Positions 29,467-32,407 of a DNA stretch of 32,407 nt are shown here, in pieces. The notes beneath the pieces were generated by a model. That model did no database searches, was not told where the DNA came from, and was given only the letters and a program-made list of their open reading frames with translations. A program made the position numbers and the translations under genes. The DNA is from Ruminococcus sp. (GTDB taxonomy: Bacteria > Bacillota > Clostridia > Oscillospirales > Ruminococcaceae): assembly GCA_017935865.1 (NCBI GenBank), contig JAGBGT010000070.1:1-32407 (forward strand). Direction: 5' to 3'. Numbering within the stretch: the first letter of the stretch is position 1; each line of letters begins with the position of its first letter.

Positions 29467-29539
29467 ATTTATACAAGATGACGACCTGCTTTGATTTGTC
29501 ATTTCAGGCGTCCAATACTTTTTTGAAGGGATGAAGAAA

Positions 29540-31969
29540 ATGTTCAGTATGAAAAAAATTGCAGCAGCCGCCATGTGCGCTGCCGTGACCCTTTCCTCTG
29601 TACCGTCTGCCTTTATCGCTGACGCTGCCGATGCTACAGTCGAAAACTCCGGTCTCGACTACGACTACGCACGCGCGCTGCAATACTCAATGTACTTCTA
29701 CGATGCCAATATGTGCGGTGACCAGGCTGAGGAAAACTCACGTCTTGCCTGGCGCGGAGACTGCCACAGCTATGACAGCAAAGTCCCGATGGTGAACGGG
29801 GTTTCCGACGGCTTCAAAAACGGCACTAACCTTTCCGAAGCGTTTATGGAAGCCAACAAAGACGTTCTCGACCCAGACGGCGACGGCTGTATCGACGTTT
29901 CCGGCGGATTCCATGATGCCGGCGACCACGTAAAATTCGGTATGCCCGAAAACTATGCAGCCGCAACTCTCGGCTGGGGCTATTACGAGTTCCGTGATTC
30001 CTACACAAAGTTGGGTCAGGACGATCATATCGAGACGCTGCTCCGCTACTTCAACGACTACCTCATGAAGTGTACTTTCCGCGATTCTGACGGCGAGGTC
30101 ATAGCGCACTGCTACCAGGTCGGCGAGGGCGGCATCGACCACGCTATATGGCAGTCCCCCGAGGTTGACTCAATGGCTCGCCCGGCATGGTTTCTCACTG
30201 CCGAAAAGCCCCAGACGGACTATGTCGTTTCTGCGGCTGCATCCCTGGCTATCAATTACCTCAATTTCAAGGATTCCGACCCCGAATATGCGGAAAAATC
30301 TCTGGACTATGCAAAATCACTGTGGAAATTTGCCAACGACAATCCCAAGGAGCTGAGTGACAACGCGGACGGCCCGATGCAGTTCTACAGCTCCAGCAAG
30401 TGGGAGGACGACTACTGCTGGGCTGCCGCATGGCTCTTCCTCTGTACAGGCGACAAGTCCTACATGGAGTCGGCTGCGCCCTACTATGACTATTATGCTC
30501 CTAGCGGCTGGTGCTACTGCTGGAACGATATGTGGAGCGGTACGGGCTGTCTCTGGGGACGCATTAACCAGGAATATCCCGAGCTTGACCTTGTAAACGT
30601 AGTCAGAAAAGCTCAGGGAAAGAATGAATATGTTTTCGACGATTTCTGGGACGAGGTAGAAAAGTGCTTCAAGGTCTGGAAAGGTCTTGAATCTCCCGGG
30701 GGATACGCTTTCCTGAATCAGTGGGGCTCGGCAAGATACAACACGGCAATGCAGCTTATTGCCCTCGTTTACGACAAATATAACAACGACGGAAAGCCCG
30801 GTCCGTACAGCGAATGGGCTGAGGGTCAGATGAAGTACATCATGGGCAACAACCCTCTGGACAGATGCTACATCGTAGGTTACAACGAAAAATCCGTTAA
30901 ATATCCTCACCACCGTGCGGCTTCCGGTCTGCTTTCTGCGGAAGATACCCGCGAGCAGAGACACGTGCTCTGGGGCGCTCTGGCTGGAGGCCCTGACGGT
31001 CAGGATAATCACAACGACACAACAAACGATTATATCTACAACGAGGTAACTATTGACTATAATGCCGCTTTCGTAGGCGCCTGCGCAGGTCTTTACGAGT
31101 ACTTCGGCACGCCGGAAATGGCTGTTACGGCTGATTTTCCGCCTCCGGAAAAGCCGCTGGAGGGCGAAGAGGATGTAAGCGGAACATGGGTCGAGGCGTG
31201 CGGTATCGACGACCTTCACAGCGACGGTGCAGGAGTTACCAAGGTTTCATTCAAGGTCATGACCGGTGCAACAAAGCCCTCGGATAAGATCTCCGTTCGA
31301 TACTACTTCAATACAAGCGAGATGGCTGGCGGAGTAAGCTCTGTTACCCATGTCAACGAGCTGTACGACCAGTCCTCCGCAGAGGTAGAGGGCGCAGACG
31401 GCGTTATCAGCGGCCCTTACAAGTATGACAAGCTGCCTGATACCTACTATGTCGAGATCGCATGGGACGGCTATATGATAGCAAATTCCGGCAAAAAATA
31501 TCAGTTCAGCGTAGGTATGTACTACGGCGACAAGTGGGATCCCACCAACGACTGGAGCTATCAGGATCTTGAAATGTACAAGGAGGACGACGCTTTCTTC
31601 GGCAACGGCAATGAAAAAACCGCTTCGCACATCTGCATTTACGATAACGGCGTGCTTATCGGAGGAATCGAGCCTGACGGAACTACTGCCGAGGAAGAAA
31701 AGCCCACAGAAGCTACGAAGCCTGCAACGACAGAGGGCGGCGAGACTTCACTTCTGGGCGATGCCAACACCGACGGCATCGTGGATATTGCGGATGCAAC
31801 GATCATTCTCCAGAGCATAGGCAACGCAGACAAGTATAAGCTTTCCGCAGCCGGCGAGAAAAATGCAGACTGCTATGCCCCCGGCAGCGGAATTACGGCT
31901 ATGGATGCTCTTGCAGTTCAGAAACTTGATGCTAAGATAATTGATAAGCTTCCCGAAATTCCGGAATAA
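29540..31969 (+). CDS. GH9 endoglucanase/cellulase with CBM3-like module and dockerin
   Basis: An 809-residue secreted enzyme hydrolysing beta-1,4-glucan with inversion. The signal peptide is at about 1-30. The GH9 catalytic domain (about 38-520) has the base Asp residues in HDAGDHVKFG (126-130 region), KYPHHRAASG and the proton donor Glu502 in NEVTIDYNAAFVG. A CBM3c-like module follows (about 548-715; VSFKVMTGATKPSDKISVRYYF, KYDKLPDTYYVEIAW), then a Thr/Pro/Glu linker. A type-I-like dockerin (738-809) has a canonical first loop GDANTDGIVDIAD and a divergent second one. ATG 29540 is preferred because AAGGG lies nine bases upstream; ATG 29531 directly abuts it. The dockerin implies attachment to a scaffoldin, making this a cellulosome component. 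No scaffoldin gene is in the window. Confidence 0.95.
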   Translation: MFSMKKIAAAAMCAAVTLSSVPSAFIADAADATVENSGLDYDYARALQYSMYFYDANMCGDQAEENSRLAWRGDCHSYDSKVPMVNGVSDGFKNGTNLSEAFMEANKDVLDPDGDGCIDVSGGFHDAGDHVKFGMPENYAAATLGWGYYEFRDSYTKLGQDDHIETLLRYFNDYLMKCTFRDSDGEVIAHCYQVGEGGIDHAIWQSPEVDSMARPAWFLTAEKPQTDYVVSAAASLAINYLNFKDSDPEYAEKSLDYAKSLWKFANDNPKELSDNADGPMQFYSSSKWEDDYCWAAAWLFLCTGDKSYMESAAPYYDYYAPSGWCYCWNDMWSGTGCLWGRINQEYPELDLVNVVRKAQGKNEYVFDDFWDEVEKCFKVWKGLESPGGYAFLNQWGSARYNTAMQLIALVYDKYNNDGKPGPYSEWAEGQMKYIMGNNPLDRCYIVGYNEKSVKYPHHRAASGLLSAEDTREQRHVLWGALAGGPDGQDNHNDTTNDYIYNEVTIDYNAAFVGACAGLYEYFGTPEMAVTADFPPPEKPLEGEEDVSGTWVEACGIDDLHSDGAGVTKVSFKVMTGATKPSDKISVRYYFNTSEMAGGVSSVTHVNELYDQSSAEVEGADGVISGPYKYDKLPDTYYVEIAWDGYMIANSGKKYQFSVGMYYGDKWDPTNDWSYQDLEMYKEDDAFFGNGNEKTASHICIYDNGVLIGGIEPDGTTAEEEKPTEATKPATTEGGETSLLGDANTDGIVDIADATIILQSIGNADKYKLSAAGEKNADCYAPGSGITAMDALAVQKLDAKIIDKLPEIPE

Positions 31970-32214
31970 GAGTTAACATTTGGTTTCCAAATAGACAGTT
32001 TCCAATATCGATTGCAGGTCGATAACACCGGGTTTCCAAAGGGACAATGTCCCTTTGGCAGAGTCCAGAGGCAGTGCCTCTGCAGGGCATGGGACAGAGT
32101 CCCATATCGACCGTAGGTCGATGCAGCCTTTAGGCGCTCTGCAAGGGGTGAATCCGAAAACAGTCCAGTGGACTGTTTTTGGAGAGGGGACGCCCTGCAA
32201 GAGAGGGCGTTCCC
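31970..32214. repeat. Array of short near-perfect palindromes after the cellulase gene
   Basis: There is no gene here. Successive hairpins occur with small spacers: 32006-32024 (imperfect), 32036-32058 (arms of 11, one-base centre), 32066-32082 (arms of 8), 32089-32105 (arms of 7), 32106-32122 (arms of 7), 32157-32179 (arms of 11) and 32187-32214 (arms of about 10 with a G-T pair). The first and fifth are variants of the same word, ATCGACC/GGTCGAT. The words CTCTGCA and CCCTGCA recur in the spacers. In RNA these would give a chain of small stable stems. The stretch probably serves as the 3' end of the cellulase transcript and may be a mobile or multiplying intergenic repeat. Confidence 0.85.
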
Positions 32215-32245
32215 TTAGAAACTGATAGTCTGTATATAAAGAAAT

Positions 32246-32290
32246 AGAGAGAAATTTTCTCGTTTAAAGGGAAGATTTCTCTCTTTTTTG
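32246..32290 (+). terminator. Hairpin with T run, possible terminator
   Basis: AGAGAGAAAT (32246-32255) pairs with ATTTCTCTCT (32275-32284) around a 19-base loop, followed by a run of T to 32289. It is A/U-rich and so moderate in strength, but correctly shaped on the plus strand. It lies in the segment (32215-32352) enclosed by inverted copies of the palindrome unit. Confidence 0.55.
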
Positions 32291-32352
32291 ATGTATCTTT
32301 TGTAGAAACTGAAATTATTCTGTAACCGCAAAAGAAGAAAACCGGGAGTTTT

Positions 32353-32407
32353 AGGGGACGCTCTCTCTTGCAGAGCGTCCCCTCTCCAAAAACAGTCCAC
32401 TGGACTG
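32353..32407. repeat. Inverted second copy of the terminal palindrome pair, cut by the window end
   Basis: AGGGGACGCTCT (32353-32364) pairs with AGAGCGTCCCCT (32372-32383), followed by AAAACAGTCCACTGGACTG. Reverse-complemented, this block matches 32161-32214 closely, apart from C/T changes in the second stem. The two blocks therefore form a long inverted repeat with about 138 bases between them. The continuation lies outside the window. Confidence 0.85.

Follow-up and report, generated by a model that had tools for sequence, protein, structure and literature searches.

The hairpin block directly behind a cellulase gene in a Ruminococcus genome is one copy of a high-copy, non-coding repeat family of the Ruminococcus group, which we read as REP/BIME/BOX-like; it probably serves as a structured 3' untranslated region (3' UTR) and has probably spread as a non-autonomous element. 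The family resembles REP, BIME and BOX repeats in position and structure and fails two tests that define REPs, the tag and the RAYT. Below, the window denotes the whole analyzed stretch of DNA (contig C119, 32,407 nt), and the source genome is the draft assembly that contains it (2.03 Mb, 125 contigs, 87.7% complete).

Results

A block of close-packed hairpins behind a cellulase gene

We counted perfect hairpins whose arms are 7 nt or longer and whose loops do not exceed 7 nt, and found six within positions 31985-32216: modules P, Q, R and S (Table 1), plus 32157-32179 and 32190-32210. In 500 dinucleotide shuffles of the same segment the count averaged 0.098 and reached at most 2. The remaining 31,969 nt of the window contained eight perfect hairpins, with no more than one in any sampled 232-nt stretch. 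An earlier note had counted at least seven compact hairpins; two weaker ones, at 31979-31991 and about 32006-32023 (judged by eye), bring the total up to that figure. The spacer word CTCTGCA is indeed reused, at 32078 and 32137, and the last two modules do recur in inverted orientation at the window end (32161-32215 versus 32353-32407; 55 nt, 95% complementary). The arm word ATCGACC/GGTCGAT, said to be used twice, was found twice as GGTCGAT, with its partner reading ATCGACC once and ATCGATT once. The RNA fold of 31970-32295, which includes the terminator-like hairpin, gave z = -12.9 (100 shuffles); the small GNRA-loop hairpin at the start of the core is absent from the window's minimum-energy fold. 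The facing partner array is incomplete at 32407 because the contig ends there.

The upstream gene ends in a TAA stop codon at 31967-31969. By eye its product has a dockerin-like C-terminus, and no Pfam dockerin match was obtained at 1e-3. A known RNA family was considered for the block, and none of the 17 Rfam matches up to E 5 in 31900-32407 attained the gathering score.

Table 1. Features of the hairpin block and its surroundings in the window
Feature	Position	Strand	Basis
Upstream gene, GH9 cellulase; array directly behind	29531..31969	+	PF00759, E 2.4e-124
Degenerate 5' modules: TTTGG-TTT-CCAAA and imperfect S (ATCGATT..GGTCGAT)	31979..32023	+	sequence, fold
Module P hairpin, arms 11 nt	32036..32058	+	repeat comparison, hairpin count
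Module Q hairpin, arms 8 nt	32066..32082	+	repeat comparison, hairpin count
Module R hairpin, arms 7 nt, center 3 nt	32089..32105	+	hairpin count
Module S hairpin, ATCGACC-GTA-GGTCGAT	32106..32122	+	hairpin count
Possible small hairpin with a GNRA loop, part of the conserved core, CTCT-GCAA-GGGG	32137..32148	+	core alignment
Core: GGTGAAT foot, covarying hairpin C, AGAGGG	32147..32188	+	106 genome matches, covariation, foot in blast-found loci
Hairpin C of the core	32153..32183, loop 32167..32169	+	covariation
Terminal hairpin T, conserved loop GCAAGAG	32185..32215	+	repeat comparison, covariation
Intrinsic-terminator-like hairpin and T run, between two facing arrays	32246..32288	+	terminator prediction
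Conserved tail of facing array	32305..32352	-	same tail beside other copies in genome
Facing partner array, with its terminal hairpin and an incomplete hairpin C	32353..32407	-	inverted repeat

Copy number and distribution of the family

The block is neither unique in its genome nor absent from relatives, an outcome that would have spoken against the earlier proposal of an intergenic repeat family with a shared module vocabulary. A core-hairpin pattern allowing up to three mismatches matched the source genome 106 times, and the arrays share common module strings; the reversed control pattern matched 0 times, and a slightly looser pattern 112 times. By blast, the source genome contains at least 42 other long copies (176 nt or more, with 85-93% identity), a figure based on scoring 40 of 231 candidates, plus shorter matches. 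One of 92 cores of named records lay inside a predicted gene. Within the source genome, 68 of 102 arrays lay at most 400 nt from a contig end; since arrays coincide with assembly breaks, they are probably one reason for the fragmented assembly.

Within the genus, 39 of 60 genomes, counting the source genome, matched by blast. Across the family, the core pattern occurred in 16 of 247 genomes (source counted) and 10 of 126 genera, and two of the four same-genus genomes within this sample lacked the core. Three of 391 genomes in the class sample matched, all from the same family, and none of the 385 genomes in it that the kinship column places outside the family had the core. Among the 80 of 115 stretches listed, the named carriers included the R. 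flavefaciens strains YL228, XPD3002, MA2007 and ND2009, together with many metagenome-assembled genomes labeled Ruminococcus, Oscillospiraceae or Clostridia. Plasmid and phage collections gave no match to the window's 201-nt block, and viral contigs gave a single exact core (L309), at positions 21-60, the extreme contig edge. One record labeled Alistipes (L201) carries an array close to the source-genome type; its label may be wrong or its bin mixed. We recognized no description of this repeat in the open-license PMC papers searched.

Nearly fixed module order and a conserved core

Source-genome arrays carry R-S-P-Q in varying numbers of repeats at their 5' side, followed by R-S, core hairpin C and terminal hairpin T. 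Five module transitions were common (RS 131, SC 96, QR 82, PQ 80 and SP 66) and four were rare (PR 17, SR 3, RP 3 and QS 1). The interchangeable modules supposed by the earlier note were not supported: their order is nearly fixed in the source genome, where gain or loss falls chiefly on the 5' side. Elsewhere the core and T were more constant than the upstream hairpins, and the P start and Q were recognized in order in 41 of 131 arrays; the 200 nt upstream of the core there contained a mean of 3.09 perfect hairpins (arms of at least 6 nt) versus 0.27 after shuffling.

An alignment of 60 cores had 19 invariant columns, part of them fixed by the search pattern. That pattern (up to three mismatches, or exact for the named-carrier scan) partly imposes the conservation of the GTGAAT foot, the hairpin tip and AGAGG; no such bias affects hairpin T, the GNRA stretch or the five lower positions of the arms. 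The foot of hairpin C read GGTGAA in 97 of 102 loci, which had been selected with the foot. Among blast-found loci, GTGAAT stood at the foot of 24 of 29 hairpin tips in the source genome (of the other five, four read like the opposite strand and one was GTGAAC) and of 15 of 19 elsewhere. A GNRA tetraloop preceded the foot in 53 of the 60 aligned cores (GCAA 44, GAAA 7, GAGA 2), with at least three of four flanking pairs in 50 of 60 and the closing pair formed in 40 of 60. The T loop was GCAAGAG in 126 of 188 terminal hairpins; in L219 it is inverted, reading CTCTTGC for GCAAGAG, as from a template-switch inversion.

Another repeat (X) takes the place of T in 17 of 102 source-genome arrays, for example in L133, L143 and L144, and is a nested repeat of the TGATTCCCCACGGGG... 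type. In the relative G047, a comparable nested insert accompanies the 360-362-nt copies in L061, L065 and L066; L069 was also noted in that genome.

Arms covary and the arrays are predicted to fold densely

In the alignment of 60 cores, 95.9% of cells paired and 15 of 26 pairs showed double changes. Double-change cells numbered 145 versus 34 after shuffling, and 0 of 500 shuffles were as high, which bears out the expectation that arms covary between copies. The number of further pair types was less clear (36 versus 31 shuffled; 10 of 500 as high). Shifting the partner lowered pairing to below 60%. At the five free arm positions, pairing reached 98.7% in 89 cores of named records (shuffled mean 70.5%, maximum 75.3%), 94.2% in 52 cores of other ("handle") genomes (shuffled 68.0%) and 94.7% in 94 source-genome cores (shuffled 62.9%). 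Counting each arm pair once gave 96.7%, 96.0% and 81.5%, respectively, the last against 61.0% for shuffled distinct arms. Perfect palindromes can be maintained by template-switch repair without selection, and part of the arm covariation could reflect palindrome repair between arms.

Among distinct hairpins, 1581 of 1708 pairs were Watson-Crick and 40 were G.U. On the sense strand, G.U pairs exceeded A.C by 40 to 20 (p 0.013); in the source genome alone the ratio of 23:13 was not significant (p 0.13). This sense-strand excess argues for RNA, and it could also stem from transcription-linked mutation. In 58 copies, folds of the RNA running from the stop codon as far as the terminal hairpin had medians of 72% paired bases and a longest unpaired run of 7 nt, compared with 60% and 12 nt among 83 coding controls.

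Source-genome arrays usually begin at stop codons, and convergent gaps are enriched

We fetched 102 of the 106 source-genome cores and excluded from the position counts eight with less than 450 nt upstream, leaving 94. Genes were called with a home-made hexamer score rather than a standard gene finder. Of these cores, 83 lay behind a gene in the sense direction and 11 otherwise. With gene ends sought at most 30 nt into the array, the median distance between called gene end and array start in those 83 was 3 nt, and 73 fell between -30 and +35 nt; 72 of these 73 gene ends were true stop codons and one was an open-frame artefact. The arrays start in differing module phases, and some overlap the stop codon. 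Outside the source genome, a gene lay in sense ahead of 50 of 73 and 41 of 63 copies; there the distance between stop codon and core was larger, typically 100-260 nt.

Convergent gaps made up 11 of 22 occupied versus 1 of 22 unoccupied gaps in the source genome (p 0.0015), and 22 of 66 versus 14 of 149 at named loci (p 4e-5). Restricting the named loci to gaps of at least 250 nt weakened the difference (19/60 versus 9/66, p 0.019); the figures for handle-genome loci were 18 of 57 occupied and 3 of 23 unoccupied. In convergent gaps the orientation of an array is uninformative. Co-directional gaps had sense-to-antisense ratios of 9:2 in the source genome, 21:15 at named loci and 22:14 in the other handle genomes. 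This sense bias is weak, and tolerance of insertions downstream of genes could therefore explain much of the placement.

Of 17 pairs of cores separated by less than 450 nt, 15 faced each other (9/9 in the source genome, 6/8 elsewhere); the other two were tandem, and none were back to back. Among the 43 source-genome copies that have 300 nt or more of downstream sequence, 23 had a partner's terminal hairpin 164-241 nt past the core, and 24 had a AGAGAGAAA...TTTCTCTCT terminator hairpin, which was not found in the other 19. The window copy has both. The zero count for GTAGGGGCG-type hairpins has no evidential value, as the search expression was too strict. At L035, L037/L306, L038 and L043, nearly the same terminator-like hairpin flanks the array on both sides and differs between loci, as if duplicated or copied upon insertion.

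Signs of mobility in a relative

The earlier suggestion that the repeat is possibly mobile was supported in one relative, G047. That genome contains 13 near-identical copies of 298-362 nt that share a sharply defined left edge and have inverted ends AAATCATAATTTA/TAAATTATGATTT; as a candidate target-site duplication, flanking TA on both sides would fit most of the 13, not all. Among the source-genome copies we noticed no inverted ends or target duplications in passing. At the L066 site, G047 carries the array and its sister G045, with flanks 92-96% identical, carries other repeats; at the L070 site both carry the array. The comparison covers these two sites, and the direction of change is not readable from it. 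In place of the G047 array, the G045 loci L300 and L301 show a plain palindrome, AAATCAAAATTTAGC-TTT-GCTAAATTTTGATTT, that resembles the array end, together with an unrelated repeat.

Mobilization by a RAYT (PF01797) was rejected for the source genome, which gave 0 matches at 87.7% completeness; G047 (99%) also gave 0. Across the genus, 23 of 60 genomes gave a PF01797 match, 20 of them above the cut-off, so an ancestral RAYT is possible. Nor did we find an autonomous copy sharing the array's left end in G047, where 15 of 16 left ends belonged to array copies and one to a contig start. A protein gene linked to the arrays' 3' side in other genera was likewise discarded; we read the shared sequence as further hairpins rather than as coding.

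At the other end of the window, a serine recombinase gene (854-2446; PF00239, PF07508 and PF13408) lies beside a tRNA-Leu(cag) gene (2499-2585), part of which, GCGCGTCTGCCTATTCCGCCA, recurs by eye about 160 nt further on, at about 2721-2741. This region is possibly the edge of an integrated element.

Discussion

Relation to known repeat systems

Like REPs and BIMEs, the family consists of short palindromes in high copy that are extragenic and lie mostly between convergent or unidirectional genes; BIMEs are composites as well. In Pseudomonas entomophila and S. wittichii, conv-REPs are reported to lie for the most part no more than 20 bp from the 3' end of an ORF (PMC3733652), and our family also adjoins gene 3' ends; that classical REPs share this closeness weighs against a functional reading of it. 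It differs in carrying a conserved GTGAAT foot at its core, whereas REPs carry an unpaired GTAG or CGTC tag. At the hairpin feet, CGTC was found 0 times; GTAG-type tags stood at 1 of 102 feet of hairpin C and at 26 of 63 feet of T, those at T being the GGAG of a variable arm. The PF01797 result for the source genome and G047 is a second difference, and the frequent facing of arrays around a terminator is a third, which also sets the family apart from BIMEs. In the available parts of the REP papers PMC3733652 and PMC2817692, Firmicutes are not named, and Ruminococcus is not named in one of them.

The BOX elements of Streptococcus (boxA-boxB(n)-boxC), as described in the accessible text of PMC3049150, are similarly ordered modular composites with a repeatable middle and predicted RNA stem-loops, and are over-represented between convergent genes. 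They occur in another host group and are built of other modules, a distinction drawn from their description rather than from sequence comparison; our arrays, by contrast, start at stop codons and form facing pairs. The same portion of that paper describes SPRITE of S. pneumoniae as a repeat with a terminator-like hairpin that is over-represented between convergent genes; SPRITE is a single 18-bp duplex carrying a uridine-rich tract, whereas here the terminator-like hairpin lies between two arrays. The G047 copies resemble MITEs, being non-autonomous units of about 300 nt with inverted ends and near-identical dispersed copies. Source-genome copies differ from MITEs in their variable 5' end, no such ends were seen there, and no partner transposase was identified.

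Weighing the explanations

We consider the REP/BIME/BOX-like family with a likely role as a structured 3' UTR the probable explanation. The array would be transcribed as the 3' UTR of the upstream gene, and its close-packed hairpins, running from the stop codon, would leave little single-stranded RNA until the intrinsic terminator. That arrangement might deny landing sites to 3' exonucleases, single-strand endonucleases and Rho. Facing arrays with a central terminator may close off both convergent transcripts. Copies would have spread as a non-autonomous element, in G047 as a 300-nt unit with inverted ends. A more specific version is tentative and, on balance, rather doubtful: that the block is a dispersible 3'-end cassette, distributed over part of one bacterial family, which in the source genome occupies scores of untranslated gene tails from the stop codon, combines hairpin armor with an RNA core, composed of the GNRA hairpin, the GTGAAT foot, the covarying hairpin and the GCAAGAG-loop hairpin, that a host or element protein reads, and in facing pairs closes convergent units.

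A selfish non-autonomous element of the MITE or REP type, with no host function and placed at gene ends by tolerated insertion, is conceivable though somewhat unlikely. The near-identical G047 copies with inverted ends, the site difference between G047 and G045 and the weak orientation bias in co-directional gaps are all in its favor, as is the over-representation of pneumococcal BOX, RUP, SPRITE and IS between convergent genes, which according to the authors may be taken to indicate mobile, parasitic entities (PMC3049150). Arrays that start at the stop codon in varying module phase are not what plain insertion of a unit with fixed ends would give, and the facing pairs and the conserved T and GNRA loops, both outside the search pattern, also weigh against pure selfishness. 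We judge quite improbable that the arrays are DNA-level sites, either cruciforms or binding sites for a protein such as gyrase or a nucleoid protein, with RNA folding incidental. Their strict Watson-Crick palindromes with few G.U pairs and their high genomic density would suit such a role, but the sense-strand excess of G.U over A.C, the variation of the tetraloop among GCAA, GAAA and GAGA, and the start at stop codons do not. Ordinary intrinsic terminators elaborated by chance would account for the terminator-like hairpin that follows over half of the 43 copies with enough downstream sequence, yet the window's plus-strand array is not itself called terminator-like, the call falling on the separate hairpin at 32246-32284, and the core of the array recurs 106 times in the genome; this explanation is extremely unlikely. 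A single terminator does not suffice, as the earlier note had argued, and its dismissal of a CRISPR was equally sound, there being no identical direct repeats with unique spacers.

Significance

The family adds a REP-like repeat whose core foot is unlike GTAG and CGTC, in a group not named in the available parts of PMC3733652 and PMC2817692. If the RNA reading is true, scores of transcript ends in the source genome, including that of the cellulase gene, would share one structured tail, and 3'-end control in these bacteria would be testable by one set of constructs.
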